A stretch of DNA of 44,952 bases, taken from positions 1 to 44,952 of the IMG/VR virus record IMGVR_UViG_3300047666_000403; one strand, given 5' to 3'. Numbering within the stretch: position 1 is the first letter of the stretch; each line of letters opens with the position of its first letter. The translations under genes and the position numbers were made by a program. The notes under the pieces were generated by a model. The model ran no database searches. It had not been told where the DNA came from and saw nothing but the letters and a program-made list of their open reading frames with translations. This DNA is from a virus. This document shows positions 11,480 through 44,952 of the stretch, piece after piece.

Positions 11480-11787
11480 CACACAGTCCCCTTCCAACAT
11501 GATATATAATATTTATTAGCAAACTCTCTAATAATATTTTCCCTAAACATCTCTGTAGCGTAAATTGGAATTTCGTATGCAGCAATAATTATATGCATGT
11601 ATGCCCTATACTCCTGCTCCTCTTCTGCCCCTTCACCCACTGATTGAACAGCATGTTCAGCCCCCATCCCTGATTGTCTTGCAGCCATTATTAATGTAGC
11701 TGTCTCTTTAACGTGTAAACATACATCTGGTCTAGCTGCTTGCACGAAGAATGGTATCATTAATGCTGTTAGTATTAGTTTTTTCAT
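11479..11787 (-). CDS. Secreted or periplasmic protein with signal peptide
   Basis: The 102-residue protein begins with a classic Sec signal peptide: MKK, a hydrophobic core LILTALMIPFFV, then cleavage probably after VQA (residue 17). The mature part of about 85 residues is helical with Cys at residues 23 and 97, suited to a disulphide bond in the periplasm. I recall similar short exported proteins in podophages, with a conserved E-T-A-x-L-I-M-x-A-R-Q stretch. The export of a protein made early in infection suggests superinfection exclusion, envelope change or lysis control; this is inference. The gene sits between the sigma-like and coiled-coil genes with 1-4 base overlaps. Confidence 0.77.
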   Translation of the reverse strand: MKKLILTALMIPFFVQAARPDVCLHVKETATLIMAARQSGMGAEHAVQSVGEGAEEEQEYRAYMHIIIAAYEIPIYATEMFRENIIREFANKYYISCWKGTV

Positions 11788-12263
11788 ATCTTACTCCCTC
11801 GTTGAAAGACCGTTCTTTTATTCCGAATATAATCAACACTTAGTCCTAGCATTGCTGCTGTCTCTTTACATGTGTATCCTAATGCAAGCATCTGTTGTGT
11901 CTCTGGTAGTTTATCAAATTCTTGTTCAGCATATATCTGCTCAGTTATGTCCTCCTCAAACAAAGGGAGGAAACCACCAGCATCCTGCATGGAGATGTGT
12001 TGATTGTTAAGCCTCCCTGCTCTACTCACTGTCATTCCATACCCTAGCTCTTGTGTCACTAAGAGGTCTATGTATCTTGATTTAGTACTCCTCTTAGAAT
12101 CATACGCAGGTATGTGCTGCAAGACACGACAAAGAATATCCTGAACTTTGTCTTCGTACTCTGGATACCAATCATCTCGTATCCCTCTCTTCCTTAATAA
12201 GAAATGTATGAGCTTCATGTTGTCTGCCACCCATTCAGGTGTTAAGGGTGATTCATCTTTCAT
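11784..12263 (-). CDS. Sigma-70-like factor (region 2 and region 4)
   Basis: The 159-residue protein has the layout of a minimal sigma factor. Residues about 10-75 look like region 2: a long helical block with VQDILCRVLQHIPAYDS and a basic RSTKSRYIDLLVTQEL segment that would bind core polymerase and the -10 box. Residues about 115-155 look like region 4: LPETQQMLALGYTCKETAAMLGLSVDYIRNKR, a helix-turn-helix for the -35 box. The linker is acidic. No phage RNA polymerase is encoded, so redirecting host polymerase is a reasonable role. It could instead be a distant helix-turn-helix regulator. It overlaps both neighbours by four bases. Confidence 0.72.
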   Translation of the reverse strand: MKDESPLTPEWVADNMKLIHFLLRKRGIRDDWYPEYEDKVQDILCRVLQHIPAYDSKRSTKSRYIDLLVTQELGYGMTVSRAGRLNNQHISMQDAGGFLPLFEEDITEQIYAEQEFDKLPETQQMLALGYTCKETAAMLGLSVDYIRNKRTVFQRGSKI

Positions 12264-15591: not shown

Positions 15592-16127
15592 TACAGCGCC
15601 CCTTGTAGCTTTGTTATCTGCTCTTGTAGTGCCTTTGCCTGAGCCTGTAGCACTTCCATTTCTTTCTGTGCCTCTGTCTGCTCTGTTCGTTCCCATATTA
15701 GGGTGAGGTGTTGACCCTCTAATTGATATACGAGAGGGGTTAATGGGTTGGAAGTGTAAACAGCTACAACATCCATCCTCCCAATAGCTTTAGACTTTAA
15801 ATCATCAGAAAAATCATCCATTGTAGCCCACCCCACCCCATTAAATACTCCATTAATCAAAACTCTATAGCTTTCATCTCTGTACTTAACAAACACAGTA
15901 TTAGATTGTGCTAACTTGATTAAATCTGATTTAGTAAATTGCATTGTCTTTCCTTTTTTAATTAATGTTAAGTCTTTAAAATCTACCCATGCGTTATAGT
16001 AATCCCATGATATTTTGTATGTGCCATTACCGCCAAAGCGTATATCAATGCAAACACCTCCCGCACCTTTATTAATACCCACACTGGATTCAACAGTATC
16101 CCCTATCTCTATCTCTAATGAATTCAT
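15591..16127 (-). CDS. Two-domain hypothetical protein with C-terminal coiled coil
   Basis: The 178-residue protein has an N-terminal SH3/KOW-like beta region (IGDTVESSVGINKGAGGVCI, then GTYKISWDYYNAWV). A second domain starts near residue 62 and a Gln-rich coiled coil covers about 150-178 (QAQAKALQEQITKLQG). Met62 (base 15944) is preceded by AAAAAAGGAAAGACA, so the second domain may also be translated on its own. It is linked to the preceding gene by an ATGA overlap. A nucleic-acid or ribosome-binding role is conceivable from the KOW-like start but not shown. Confidence 0.65.
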   Translation of the reverse strand: MNSLEIEIGDTVESSVGINKGAGGVCIDIRFGGNGTYKISWDYYNAWVDFKDLTLIKKGKTMQFTKSDLIKLAQSNTVFVKYRDESYRVLINGVFNGVGWATMDDFSDDLKSKAIGRMDVVAVYTSNPLTPLVYQLEGQHLTLIWERTEQTEAQKEMEVLQAQAKALQEQITKLQGAL

Positions 16128-16465
16128 ACTAACAACCCCTGTGGCTCACTCTCTATAAAATCAGCTATGTGTGCGAATGTGGAATGTGACATATCATTTA
16201 TCTCAGATAATGGGGCCTTGTTATCACTTGTCCCAAGGTTACCCCGCAATCCCACCCAATTCCTTACAACACCGTGGCTAGAGAGGCTACCCCCATTAAA
16301 GAAACCACTTGGTGTTCTCTCTAGCACATTCCCTGTTTCTTTTTCGTACACGTCACACATAACACCAAGACAACAATACCCACCTGTATTCTGTAATGTA
16401 CCCCTAGCTTGCTTGTACTCTCCACTCCTAAGAGCCACTAATACTTTTCTCATATTATCGTTCAT
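16124..16465 (-). CDS. Conserved phage protein with YCCLGVMCD motif
   Basis: The 113-residue protein contains ALRSGEYKQARGTL, then YCCLGVMCDVY, and later LSEINDMSHSTFAHIADFIE. This combination (Y-C-C-L-G-V-x-C-D and L-x-E-L/I-N-D) marks a widespread uncharacterised family in phages and bacteria. The Cys pair may bind metal. It has AGAGAGG before its ATG and no overlapping upstream gene, so it begins a co-translated set. The region upstream holds an inverted repeat that may be its control site. Confidence 0.8.
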   Translation of the reverse strand: MNDNMRKVLVALRSGEYKQARGTLQNTGGYCCLGVMCDVYEKETGNVLERTPSGFFNGGSLSSHGVVRNWVGLRGNLGTSDNKAPLSEINDMSHSTFAHIADFIESEPQGLLV

Positions 16466-16498
16466 TATAAAGCCTCTCTGGTATCATGTACCGATATT

Positions 16499-16513
16499 GA
16501 TACACGTTGTATC
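16499..16513. promoter_or_regulatory. Perfect inverted repeat, possible operator
   Basis: GATACA-CGT-TGTATC is a perfect 6-bp dyad with a 3-base centre, about 35 bases upstream of the start at 16465. A second partial dyad, GGTA-TCATG-TACC, lies at 16480-16492. Paired dyads in this position suggest a repressor or activator site. Confidence 0.4.
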
Positions 16514-16536
16514 TATTTTATTTACTTATACATCTA

Positions 16537-16638
16537 CTACGTAGGTTGCAAAGATTGCACTAAAACCCTATACTGAATAGTATATTCATCTTCTTTAAAA
16601 AGAAGTCTTAATAAATACTTAAACAACATAAACATCAT
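16537..16638 (-). CDS. Possible 33-codon hydrophobic peptide
   Basis: This ORF runs MMFMLFKYLLRLLFKEDEY and then a short polar end. Only a weak AGG precedes the ATG and no overlap links it to a neighbour. It is listed because the gap is otherwise empty and the peptide has a membrane-type start. It may be chance. Confidence 0.25.
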   Translation of the reverse strand: MMFMLFKYLLRLLFKEDEYTIQYRVLVQSLQPT

Positions 16639-17690: not shown

Positions 17691-17848
17691 CGTTCATCCC
17701 TCAGTGCTAGGCTACATACAGCAAGCAATACAGAAGTGAGGATAATATACACAAACCACCCTATAGAGAATTGTTCAAAGATTGTGTCAGCTATATCAGT
17801 GTTTAAAAAGCTGGCTATAACTATAAATAGTATTTGTTTAGTGTTCAT
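17687..17848 (-). CDS. Small two-helix membrane protein
   Basis: This 53-codon gene has ATGA overlaps at both ends. The peptide has two hydrophobic stretches, about residues 5-15 and 31-49 (WFVYIILTSVLLAVCSLAL), with an acidic loop between and a charged end (RDER). It probably sits in the inner membrane. The function is unknown. Confidence 0.68.
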   Translation of the reverse strand: MNTKQILFIVIASFLNTDIADTIFEQFSIGWFVYIILTSVLLAVCSLALRDER

Positions 17849-18099
17849 CGTTCTAGCTCCTGTATTGTAGCTTCAAGCTGTTTAATTGTCTCACGTAGTT
17901 GATTGGTAGTCTTTGCTTTAATAGGTGTTACACGACCCCAATAGCAAACTCTTTCTGCCCCATCCATGAGCCTTGTAAAGAATGCGAATTTACGCCCCTC
18001 ATCTCGGTATAAAACAACAATCCCTTGTTCCACATGTTCAAACTCATCCCCTATCTTATAATCTGTACTCCAACTACCATCTGCTAATTCATAACTCAT
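17845..18099 (-). CDS. Small protein, beta domain plus coiled coil
   Basis: The 84-residue protein begins with a beta-rich part (YKIGDEFEHVEQGIVVLYRDEGRKF) and ends with a coiled coil (NQLRETIKQLEATIQELER). AAAGGATAAGACA precedes the ATG. It is the first gene after the conserved promoter-like element at 18159-18187, so it is probably the first of a transcript. The function is unknown. Confidence 0.66.
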   Translation of the reverse strand: MSYELADGSWSTDYKIGDEFEHVEQGIVVLYRDEGRKFAFFTRLMDGAERVCYWGRVTPIKAKTTNQLRETIKQLEATIQELER

Positions 18100-18122: not shown

Positions 18123-18153
18123 AAACGCTCTGTATGCAACACACAGGCGTTTT
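18123..18153 (-). promoter_or_regulatory. Long leader hairpin
   Basis: Read on the minus strand, AAACGC-CTGTGTG-TTG-CATACAG-A-GCGTTT folds into a stem of 6 plus 7 pairs (one G-U) with one bulged A and a 3-base loop. It lies just after the predicted promoter and before the start at 18099, in the 5' leader. It may stabilise the mRNA, attenuate transcription or be a processing site. The tail TTTAACA is weak for a terminator. Confidence 0.5.
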
Positions 18154-18158
18154 AATGT

Positions 18159-18187
18159 AATGATGCTACCAATGCCCTAGTATTATA
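18159..18187 (-). promoter_or_regulatory. -10 box plus conserved ATTGGTAGCATCATT element (copy 1)
   Basis: On the minus strand TATAAT (18187-18182) is followed 8 bases later by ATTGGTAGCATCATT (18173-18159). The same 15-mer follows a TATACT box at 19369-19343. No consensus -35 sits at the usual distance. It would start a transcript into 18099 and below. Conservation downstream of the -10 points to an operator, initial-transcribed element or sigma-specific site. Confidence 0.6.
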
Positions 18188-18257
18188 TCCCACACTCTTC
18201 CAGATGCTGTACAAGCTCATCCAATGTGTAATACTCACCATGATGTAGAAAACTCAT
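18183..18257 (-). CDS. Tiny 24-codon protein
   Basis: The peptide MSFLHHGEYYTLDELVQHLE... has a strong GGGAGGGG before its ATG and begins one base after the previous stop. An upstream extension to 18365 is the wrong frame of the 57-codon gene. It is a short amphipathic helix; the gene end overlaps the -10 box of the next transcript. Confidence 0.5.
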   Translation of the reverse strand: MSFLHHGEYYTLDELVQHLEECGI

Positions 18258-18258
18258 G

Positions 18259-18432
18259 TTATCCCCTCCCTTTGTTCTTGGCTTTCTTTGAATCACGCTT
18301 TTGTTGAGCATGTGACGGTGAGTGCTTAGATAATCCCGCATATTGGAACTTTGTGTACCCTCCACTCAATCCCCCGTGAAAATCACTTACTGACCCCGCG
18401 AGGGCTGTTACTAATACTTTTTTCATATTCAT
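18259..18432 (-). CDS. Small basic protein
   Basis: This 57-codon gene starts in an ATGA overlap with GGGG seven bases upstream. The C-terminal half is basic (AGLSKHSPSHAQQKRDSKKAKNKG) and resembles small phage proteins ending in a K-H-x-P-S-x-x-Q-Q-K-R-D-S-x-K motif. It may bind nucleic acid. The function is unknown. Confidence 0.6.
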   Translation of the reverse strand: MNMKKVLVTALAGSVSDFHGGLSGGYTKFQYAGLSKHSPSHAQQKRDSKKAKNKGRG

Positions 18433-18599
18433 ACTGCTGCCCCTATGTAGTCTCTAACTGCTCGTTTATGTCTGAATAACACACCATTTGTACTGTTATT
18501 CTCTTTTAGTATGTACTCTGTACCCTTGTTCATGTGACGTATAACGATAATCATGCTACCAGTCACACGCAATACACGTTCATTGATTAGTTTAGTCAT
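18429..18599 (-). CDS. Small hypothetical protein
   Basis: This 56-codon gene starts inside the 3' end of its upstream neighbour (8-base overlap) and ends in an ATGA overlap. The peptide is beta-rich (RVLRVTGSMIIVIRHM) followed by a polar helix (LFRHKRAVRDYIG). The function is unknown. Confidence 0.62.
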   Translation of the reverse strand: MTKLINERVLRVTGSMIIVIRHMNKGTEYILKENNSTNGVLFRHKRAVRDYIGAAV

Positions 18600-18940: not shown

Positions 18941-19318
18941 TTACTCCGCTATGTAATATGTAAGTGTGAGAGGGTTGAATGTATAGGCATCTTTAGCCTT
19001 CGCATGAGCTTCGCTAACACCTTTGAATAAGCCTAAACTAACCATGTTGTCCATACTATAGATTAATGTAGCAAGGCGCTGATTGTCTAGGTACAGGATG
19101 GATTCTTGATTGTACTCTTTAGCAAAGGCTAAGATACTGAATAGGTTTCCATCTACTTCAAGTATATAACTACGTTCAACCTCTCCTTTGTAACAGCCAT
19201 CAAGTGCTGGCCTCTCGTAATCATACCCTAAGAATTTACTTATAGCATTGTGTTCAGCCTCCACACTGTCTAAGTTAAGAGCTAAGATTACTAGTGATGT
19301 CAATGTATTGTCTCGCAT
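18941..19318 (-). CDS. Hypothetical protein, first gene after promoter-like element
   Basis: The 125-residue protein starts after AAAGGTAACACT. It is helical at the start (LTSLVILALNLDSVEAEHNA), with beta strands in the middle. It follows copy 2 of the conserved promoter-like element, so it is probably the first gene of its own transcript. No family is recognised. Confidence 0.68.
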   Translation of the reverse strand: MRDNTLTSLVILALNLDSVEAEHNAISKFLGYDYERPALDGCYKGEVERSYILEVDGNLFSILAFAKEYNQESILYLDNQRLATLIYSMDNMVSLGLFKGVSEAHAKAKDAYTFNPLTLTYYIAE

Positions 19319-19342: not shown

Positions 19343-19369
19343 AATGATGCTACCAATCGACATAGTATA
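19343..19369 (-). promoter_or_regulatory. -10 box plus conserved ATTGGTAGCATCATT element (copy 2)
   Basis: On the minus strand TATACT (19369-19364) is followed 6 bases later by ATTGGTAGCATCATT (19357-19343), then TTAATTAA and the SD of the gene starting at 19318. Copy 1 is at 18159-18187. No good -35 is found, so a phage or activator-dependent promoter is possible. Confidence 0.6.
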
Positions 19370-19383
19370 AGAATATATATTAA

Positions 19384-19578
19384 TTACTTACGGCCAGTGT
19401 GGTATACACGATATTGTGATACATGCTGACTAACATATTCAAAGTCTTTTGTATCTACTTGATACCAAAATTCTCTCCCATTCTCCCCCTTTATAATACC
19501 GTTAAAATCCTCATTAATTAAAGGGTCATTTTTAGATTCTTTTAATGCTTTAATGTAGACACTTTCTGTTATTCTCAT
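19384..19578 (-). CDS. Small hypothetical protein
   Basis: The 64-residue protein begins MRITESVYIKALKESKND and has a beta-rich second half (REFWYQVDTKDFEYVSQHV). It follows the WAGY gene by one base. No family is recognised. Confidence 0.62.
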   Translation of the reverse strand: MRITESVYIKALKESKNDPLINEDFNGIIKGENGREFWYQVDTKDFEYVSQHVSQYRVYHTGRK

Positions 19579-20234: not shown

Positions 20235-20800
20235 TATCCTTTATAAGGTATACAACATACATAAGTATATATGTATAGGTAGTAAGAGCTAGTCAGAGTA
20301 ACAACACTGATAAGTGTAGACGTACTAGCTTGCTGGTATGGCTAACTATATACAACTCAACTACTTAGCCATTGTGTTCGTGTTAGAACGCTAGGCTACA
20401 CTCGTACCTCATTCCACCCGTAATTACTTAATGAAGGCCCCCATAGGGGGGAATTGCTTTGACGAGGGTGTATATGCATAGCACTCTACAAATTTCTACA
20501 AAAAGTATTTCTTTAGGAGTTATATACACTCAGTGGTTGCTGGATAAATCACAGCTCCCTTGCTCATAAGGTCTAAAGACCACATTCGCATAGTAGCAGC
20601 CTGAGTATTCTACTGCTATTCTAGTTAGTATGCTTGTATGCTAATAGTATTACTAGATTGCATTCTTATTTTTAATCGCTATACTAGATTGTATGGTTTG
20701 CTTAGATGCAGATAAACAATTTAAAGTGTACTCCTAGACAATAGTGACATAAGAACAGTTCATTGGCAGATACGGTACACAATTATTCTAAAGGGGATGT
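20235..20800. promoter_or_regulatory. Divergent control region between early and late operons
   Basis: This 566-bp AT-rich region has no convincing gene. It contains several dyads: CCTTTATAAGG near 20238, ACACT-GATA-AGTGT (20304-20317), GGCTAA...TTAGCC (20340-20370), CCCCC-ATA-GGGGG near 20438-20450 and GGTCT-AA-AGACC (20570-20581). It also has a 13-bp direct repeat at 20651 and 20682. It must hold the start sites for both operons and could also be the replication origin. Exact promoters for the minus direction are unclear; TATACT and TATAAA boxes occur near 20250-20270. Confidence 0.7.
20651..20694 (+). promoter_or_regulatory. Direct repeats with embedded late-promoter candidate
   Basis: TACTAGATTGYAT occurs at 20651-20663 and 20682-20694, spaced by 31 bp (about three helical turns). 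Between and within them, TTGCAT (20658-20663) and TATACT (20680-20685) are separated by 16 bp. This is a plausible plus-strand promoter for the late operon starting at 20801. The repeat overlapping both boxes suggests regulated binding. Confidence 0.45.
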
Positions 20801-43442: not shown

Positions 43443-44952
43443 ATGGCTAGGTATGGTTGTACGATAACAGTAGCAACGGGGAAAGTACCCTCTGCGCAAA
43501 CGGATTTTACTTGGGTAGCTGTCACGGCAAACTTTCCAAGTGCTGCAATTGATGGTGGCAGTACTTCCATAAACAATGGAGGTGGCAATCTTAAGTGTTA
43601 TACAGACAGTGGGAAAGGAACACGCCTACCTGTAGAAGTTGTTACGTTTGTTACTGGTGGCTCTCCTAGTATACTCATATGGGGTCTATCCTCAAGCCTG
43701 AATGTAGGTAGTACAGTCTATATTGAAGCGGATACTGTCGCTACTTCACTTCCTGCTAATGGAGCAGCTTTTGGTAGGGATGCGGTGTGGGCTGACCACC
43801 TTGCTGCCTTGCACTTGTATGGGGGTAGCCTTACAGACTCATCTGGAAACGGATACAATGGAACGTTAGGTGGTACATCCCCTACCTCCCTATCAGGACA
43901 AGGGTATTCATTTAGTAATGGATACATCTCTCTTGGAGCAGTACCTTTAAATGGTAGGTCAACGGTCAGCGTTCATTGCACATTTAAAAATGCAGCGGCA
44001 TCAGCAGATAAAGGAATATGGTATTTAAACAATGATGAAGGCGCTGGTGATGAACCATTTGGCCTTCGCCAAGATTCAACTGTCTCAGGCTCTTCAGAAA
44101 CAGTAACCTTCCAATCTGCATTTTCTCAAGCGGTTGGTGGATATAGGATAGGGCATCAAACAAACTCAAGTACAACATCAGTGCAACGGTCTTGTAATGT
44201 GTTTGATAACCAAGCCGCCACAGTGTATATGGATGGCGCAAATGATTTAGGCACCCTTCTTTCAAGTGATACATCAACAACGCTAAACGTAGGCACAGGT
44301 GATTTACGAATAGGAACGGGGGCGAAGGACAGGTACACAGGCGAAATATACTCTTTCTACGTTAAGGAGACAGCGGATAGTGCAGACTTTTGTGCGTCAA
44401 GAGATAACAACCAAAGCGACCCGTCAACATTCTGGTCTACTGGTGCTTGGGAAGACCAAGATACTGGACTCACAATATCACCACCATCCATAGCCTCTAC
44501 GGAAGCCTTTGGAACAGCAGAGATTACTACAGGGTCTGTAACCCTCTCTCCTAGTGGAATTGCTTCATTAGAGGCATTCGGTACAGCAGAGGTAACAACG
44601 GGGGTTGAAATTGTATCCCCTTCTTCTATTGCGTCTGAGGAGAGCGTACCCACCCCTGAAATAACAACTGGTGTTGTAACATTAAGCCCTTCTGGTATCA
44701 CTTCTCAGGAGTCTGTACCTAGTCCCACAGTGGAGTCTTTAGGTGTTATTCTAACGCCTTTAAGCATAGCCTCTTTAGAAGCATTTGGTAATGCTGTAGT
44801 AGAAAGGCTATTAGCTATCCTCTCGCCTCTTGGGATAACAAGTGCAGAATCATTTGGATTGGTAACAGTAGTAGGTGGTGACACATTAATAATACCTGTA
44901 GATGAGAGACAAACATGGAATAGAGTAGCTAAGTACTTAAGGACGGTAGGAT
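43443..44952 (+). CDS. Lectin-like receptor-binding/virion protein with 23-residue repeats (continues at 1..366)
   Basis: The gene runs off the window and continues at position 1, giving 582 residues. Residues about 1-110 are beta-rich. About 115-300 resemble a LamG/concanavalin-like lectin (LHLYGGSLTDSSGNGYNGTL, YSFSNGYISLG, AATVYMDGAND, GDLRIGTGAKDRYTGEIYSF). Six exact-length 23-residue repeats (S-P-x-x-I-A/T-S-x-E-x) follow, then a C-terminal module. Such a layout fits a host-binding protein held out on a repeat stalk. It may also be a head fibre. No catalytic site is visible. Confidence 0.8.
   Translation, partial: MARYGCTITVATGKVPSAQTDFTWVAVTANFPSAAIDGGSTSINNGGGNLKCYTDSGKGTRLPVEVVTFVTGGSPSILIWGLSSSLNVGSTVYIEADTVATSLPANGAAFGRDAVWADHLAALHLYGGSLTDSSGNGYNGTLGGTSPTSLSGQGYSFSNGYISLGAVPLNGRSTVSVHCTFKNAAASADKGIWYLNNDEGAGDEPFGLRQDSTVSGSSETVTFQSAFSQAVGGYRIGHQTNSSTTSVQRSCNVFDNQAATVYMDGANDLGTLLSSDTSTTLNVGTGDLRIGTGAKDRYTGEIYSFYVKETADSADFCASRDNNQSDPSTFWSTGAWEDQDTGLTISPPSIASTEAFGTAEITTGSVTLSPSGIASLEAFGTAEVTTGVEIVSPSSIASEESVPTPEITTGVVTLSPSGITSQESVPSPTVESLGVILTPLSIASLEAFGNAVVERLLAILSPLGITSAESFGLVTVVGGDTLIIPVDERQTWNRVAKYLRTVG
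44469..44882 (+). repeat. Six tandem 69-bp coding repeats
   Basis: Six copies start at 44469, 44538, 44607, 44676, 44745 and 44814; each encodes 23 residues. The shared core is S-P-x-x-I-x-S-x-E-(A-F-G or S-V-P). Copies 1 and 2 are most alike, the last ones most diverged. The length never varies, which implies that the spacing matters for the fold. The assembly joint lies in copy 6. Confidence 0.85.
44826..44952. repeat. Right copy of 127-bp terminal overlap
   Basis: This stretch is identical to bases 1-127 and lies inside the same gene. The true unit should end at 44825. Confidence 0.97.

Follow-up and report, generated by a model that had tools for sequence, protein, structure and literature searches.

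The stretch of DNA analysed here, referred to as the window, covers all 44,952 bases of a virus record from a marine-type phage, the terminase of which is 47% identical to those of Pseudoalteromonas phages RIO-1 and HP1, both placed in the Zobellviridae by their records. Structural genes lie on the plus strand, and the replication genes, together with many small genes, read along the minus strand, beginning at about 20 kb and running towards lower coordinates. The phage is a lytic podophage in which no RNA polymerase of its own has been recognised. Small genes lie in the initial 5 kb of the minus arm (20 to 15 kb), a segment called the early region on the basis of its place and content. The ends of the record (1-127 and 44826-44952) are identical over 127 nt; since 127 is a common assembler k-mer length, they may reflect a contig that closed on itself with overlapping ends, and not a true terminal repeat. 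The terminal repeats of RIO-1 adjoin the holin, which suggests that the true end of the window genome may lie near 20-20.8 kb. Between the two arms there are also about 550 nt of conserved noncoding DNA (20254-20800), and the stretch around ATGCATAGCACTCTACAAATTT within it is kept in the more distant relatives L131 and L136.

Two short leaders of the early region share the 15-mer ATTGGTAGCATCATT, which is found at 18159-18173 (copy 1) and 19343-19357 (copy 2), both on the minus strand, with no other exact copy in the whole record. This search confirmed the initial annotation, which had reported an identical 15-mer in two minus-strand leaders. Copy 1 lies 59 nt before the start codon of an 84-aa gene (17845-18099, minus strand) and copy 2 lies 24 nt before that of a 125-aa gene (18941-19318, minus strand), as counted from the ORF starts. 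The product of the latter matches the S-adenosylmethionine (SAM) lyase family PF23780 (E 3.3e-13; 50.2 bits against a cut-off of 28). SAM-lyase-type enzymes include the T3 anti-restriction protein, and 18941-19318 is a candidate early-region anti-restriction gene of putative function. Among six stretches in viral_contigs, no relative of this protein was confirmed. The 84-aa gene gave a single partial match of 20 residues, in L153, where the leader, read by eye, is without the element.

Upstream of copy 1 is a 24-codon mini-gene (18183-18257, minus strand) that ends 9 nt before the element, and copy 2 is preceded by the gene 19384-19578. The initial annotation had named two hexamers as -10 boxes, and their positions were verified: on the minus strand, TATAAT (18182-18187) stands 8 bases before copy 1, where it contains the TAA stop of the mini-gene (18183-18185), and TATACT (19364-19369) stands 6 bases before copy 2, and neither is preceded by a good -35 at the usual distance. 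Between copy 1 and the ribosome-binding region, an RNA hairpin is predicted (18123-18152, minus strand). The fold of the whole 18.17 kb leader has a z of -2.20 in the window versus +0.59 in the related contig L126, and conservation of the hairpin by covariation is unsupported, the minimum-energy fold of L126 being without it.

Looser relatives of the 15-mer also occur in the window. One that had been reported inside the gene 18429-18599 was located at 18549-18563, with two mismatches and in coding DNA, where it encodes TGSM in a protein that is 88-95% identical across three phages; this match is read as a coincidence because the DNA of the related contig L125 is altered at that place (ACTGGTAGTATGATT). 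An antisense relative, TGGTATCAT, lies on the plus strand at 16479-16487 in the leader of the gene 16124-16465, and L126 has ACTGGTAGCATCATA at the matching place. Antisense occurrences of TGGTATCAT within coding DNA (five places) were dropped, as this is not among the most over-represented 9-mers. A conserved leader at 16486-16540 contains the near-palindrome TGTATCAATATCGGTACA and stands ahead of different genes in the window and in L126.

Shared 15-mers are ordinary across the window, which holds 13 direct and 7 inverted pairs, so the repeat of ATTGGTAGCATCATT is by itself weak proof of a signal and comparison with relatives is needed. In the noncoding pool (3,564 nt), however, only 0.03 shared 15-mer pairs are expected and 5 of 200 simulated sets reach one, a rarity that makes the repeat suggestive. 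With up to three mismatches to the 15-mer allowed, the whole record contains nine matches against 2.23 expected, and none of 100 shuffles reaches nine.

A terminase scan provided 30 loci, and the same early region was recognised in three contigs, namely L125 (G001), L126 (G002) and L127 (G003), the last two of which look like one phage because they show the same identities when aligned to the window. In the 18.17 kb leader, all 15 bases of the element are kept in L126 and 13 of 15 in L125, and a conserved alignment block surrounds it, with the stop codon of the mini-gene, itself kept in sequence in L126, shortly upstream. The fixed relation to an upstream -10 box that the initial annotation had put forward did not hold, in that the hexamer at the place of TATAAT, which overlaps the mini-gene stop in the window, is CATAAA in L126 and TTGTAA in L125. 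Conservation of the leader reaches as far as the ATG, and the gene behind it is unrelated between the window and L126: window 17845-18099 and L126 2190-2411 gave no local alignment. The contigs L127 and L125 break off within this leader or close to it, and the gene-swap comparison is between the window and L126.

The search of the whole genome and its relatives that had been proposed beforehand yielded further noncoding copies in L126 and L125. At up to three mismatches, the early noncoding DNA holds two copies in the window (null 0.09; 1 of 300 randomisations reaching two), three in L126 (null 0.14; 0 of 300) and three in L125 (null 0.07; 0 of 300), counts that include the orthologous 18.17 kb copies and leave out coding matches (one in L126, one in L125 and two in the window). 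The copies at L126 3532 and L125 2195 occupy matching places behind the same terminator-like sequence. In a scan of the wider collection, at least 120 stretches matched the 15-mer, which by estimate is about the chance level; among the matches listed, only L077, which belongs to the same contig as L126, aligned to the early region of the window (L071 aligned elsewhere), and the matches other than L077 were left out of the comparison.

Comparison of the sites gave the core TGSTAKCA, which is also seen in the leaders of G005, G015, G012 and G013. Under one fixed noncoding rule, six phage records carry the core in their early leaders, with 13 copies in the sense and two in the antisense orientation, the sense copies being distributed as two in the window, one in G002, three in G001, two in G005, four in G015 and one in G012 (a second G012 stretch has none); permuted patterns (n = 2000) average 0.47 copies and none reaches 13. 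These 13 copies overstate independence, because the core was trimmed after viewing sites in the same genomes, the records are related (G005 and G015 closely) and tandem units are counted twice. The window 15-mer at up to three mismatches misses the G005 and G015 leaders, which are found by the trimmed core alone, and three of eight copy-bearing regions are unremarkable singly (for example, 40 of 300 shuffles reach the count in G002 and 56 of 300 in G012). One leader copy of the core, for example, directly follows the stop codon that ends L208 3094-3294, and this gene matches window 19384-19578 over a short stretch (11 residues, E 8e-5). No core copy was found in the early noncoding DNA of RIO-1 or HP1. 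Tandem repeats of TAGCCTTAG/CCTTAGGTG at L145 952-1041 (G010), probably in a coding region, were set aside as coding-like.

Taken as a whole, the element recurs, mostly in the sense orientation, in the early leaders of several related phages, and it stays in place while the downstream gene is exchanged. This recurrence before unrelated early genes indicates that the element is probably a signal controlling the expression of early genes, as opposed to a repeat that arose by chance, and the comparison with related phages supports the recurrent, conserved leader signal foreseen in the initial annotation.

The best explanation, which we hold tentatively and at somewhat less than even confidence, is that early units are driven separately, the SAM-lyase gene among them, and that the element is their directional promoter element. 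The 15-mer would then be one form of a directional DNA element, with the core TGSTAKCA(t), placed in individual early-gene leaders of these podophages. Extended -10 promoters of sigma-70 have a TGnTATAAT-type layout. The element reads TGG-TA(G/T)CAT within ATTGGTA(G/T)CAT, i.e., TG-N-TA-K-CAT, which is near that box, and we infer that it constitutes a promoter core. TGnTANNNT is present at all eight sites compared, seven of which are oriented along the early genes; the five key positions (T, G, T, A and T) are invariant, an invariance that is biased because the sites were chosen by similarity, and the free position is G or C. At L126 3532, TTGCCT stands 16 nt before TATCAT. From the closeness to the extended -10 box, the predicted transcription starts would lie some 7 nt behind the hexamer, at about 18156 and about 19340, leaving short 5' leaders ahead of each start codon, so that the SAM-lyase gene and others like it would get their own transcription start during infection. 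The element would be read by a host sigma factor or a phage sigma-like protein.

Several observations speak against a promoter. The element differs from extended -10 promoters in having TAGCAT or TATCAT in place of TATAAT and an invariant C, and its start sites are predictions; TAGCAT is a weak -10 (4 of 6 positions) and a -35 is absent at most sites. The last T of the -10 is missing from several core units of G005, G015 and G001, which run TATCAG or TATCAC. One of the L125 sites is preceded by a better promoter of the ordinary kind (TTGACA-16-TATATT), and the early noncoding DNA of RIO-1 and HP1 is without a copy.

In addition, TGNTANCA is a short palindrome, and two units stand 12 bp apart in L125 (807-826), G005 and G015 (L181 2639-2658 and L208 3073-3092), an arrangement that is operator-like. 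A phage or host DNA-binding protein might accordingly sit on TGNTANCA units near the early start and repress or activate the early genes from a promoter lying upstream, such as TATAAT, TATACT or TTGACA-16-TATATT. Besides the self-complementarity and the spaced tandem units, such an operator would account for further tandem units with one mismatch and a gap of 3 in G012 and G013, and for the variable distance to -10-like hexamers (4, 7, 8 and 10 nt). We consider it possible but on the unlikely side, as the copies of the window and of L126 each consist of one unit and no regulator or repressor was recognised among the scanned proteins except the sigma-like one described below. The strong orientation bias of the core (13 to 2) is better fitted by a promoter or an RNA element than by a symmetric operator. 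In an RNA leader element, the motif would act in the 5' region of the mRNA, for example by binding a translation regulator or by affecting RNA stability. Its position 24-59 nt ahead of the start codon in the window and the hairpins in the window 18.17 kb leader and the L125 leader agree with such a role, which is nevertheless unlikely: the motif is in a stem in one leader and mostly unpaired in another, the L126 leader folds no better than its shuffled versions, the motif also has antisense copies, and there is no Rfam match in the window.

It is also conceivable, but quite unlikely, that the element has no regulatory role and marks a cassette boundary, a short shared leader kept by the recombination that shuffles small early genes. 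The early region is indeed mosaic, the window and L126 have different genes behind the same leader with the break at the ATG, and contigs G001 and G003 end near the 18.17 kb leader. Outside this leader, however, the flanks differ for the most part, which leaves about 15 bp in common, a short length for homologous exchange. The version taken from the initial annotation, in which an initial-transcribed signal stands at a set distance behind a -10 box, drew on the hexamers 8 and 6 bases upstream in the window. It now appears very improbable, given that the hexamers are unconserved in L126 and L125 and that the -10 association is weak overall: the best -10 match 3-11 nt upstream of 14 noncoding units averages 4.07 of 6 versus 3.66 for background, with a p of 0.04 that is inflated because second tandem units count the first unit as a -10. 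Finally, the 13 direct 15-mer pairs of the window leave some room for a chance repeat, which the recurrence in noncoding leaders of related phages renders extremely improbable.

A possible reader of the element, if it is a promoter, is encoded between the helicase and DNA polymerase genes, where a small sigma-70-family-like protein of 159 aa (11784-12263, minus strand) is found. It matches phrog_1740 (E 1.5e-5) and, below the cut-off of 24, Pfam Sigma70_r2 (E 0.0017; 18.5 bits), and a profile of three orthologues matches sigma-H 3mzy over profile positions 35-144 (E 2.4e-5). Its low-confidence structural model (pLDDT 53.7) has sigma region 4 as its top matches (Z 7.0), and the orthologues in G001 and G002 are 49-50% identical. 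RIO-1 (NC_021300) similarly has a sigma-like gene between primase/helicase and DNA polymerase, RIO-1_19, annotated as a putative sigma factor; unlike the window protein, to which it shows no detectable similarity, it accompanies early noncoding DNA without the element. An argument from co-occurrence of the sigma-like protein and the element in the same three phages was dropped, because the syntenic sigma factor annotated in RIO-1 was missed by these profiles and because the syntenic protein of G005 (173 aa) has a weak region-2-like match and no Pfam match. A small protein of L126 (814-1128, minus strand) matches HNH endonuclease and Srd anti-sigma/sigma70-decoy PHROG families. In a further, doubtful extension of the promoter reading, the element would serve the phage's own sigma-70-like factor, which would redirect the host RNA polymerase to single early genes, including the anti-restriction-type SAM lyase, and TGSTAKCAT would be a single-block box that travels with exchangeable cassettes.

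Among known systems, stoperators, which are repressor-bound sites of temperate phages, resemble the element as short repeated sites in a phage genome but differ in that no repressor was recognised here among the scanned proteins. The nearest kind found is the Start-Associated Sequence (SAS) of cluster K mycobacteriophages (PMC3203893, 2011; PMC12699233). According to PMC3203893, which also names the stoperators of cluster A mycobacteriophages, the SAS is GGGATAGGAGCCC and has 93 listed sites; it lies at a distance of 3-7 bp from the start codon, in overlap with the ribosome-binding site, and its function was left unresolved. The SAS is, like the present element, a short asymmetric sequence in a non-structural arm, mostly in one orientation (here 13 sense and 2 antisense) and ahead of unrelated genes, as seen here behind the same leader. 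The element, by contrast, is TGSTAKCAt, with few copies per phage, and stands 59 and 24 nt before the start codon in the window; compared by reading, ATTGGTAGCATCATT/TGSTAKCA does not fit the SAS consensus given there within two deviations. The differing sequence and place relative to the start codon argue that it is not an SAS member, and we rate it as belonging with recurrent phage leader elements while being itself new. Titles and abstracts on Zobellviridae/cobavirus promoters, VpV262/RIO-1 sigma factors and podovirus phage-encoded sigma factors held no such element, and the literature matches listed for the last 12 bases of the 15-mer look, by title, unrelated to phages.

Much of the counter-defence of lytic phages is encoded among their early genes, and the way in which such genes are driven in podophages without a recognised polymerase of their own is little described in the literature found. 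A signal that stays while genes swap would flag the early transcription units of metagenomic phages and aid the discovery of takeover genes, and through the element the sigma-like gene of this phage group can be put to a concrete test.
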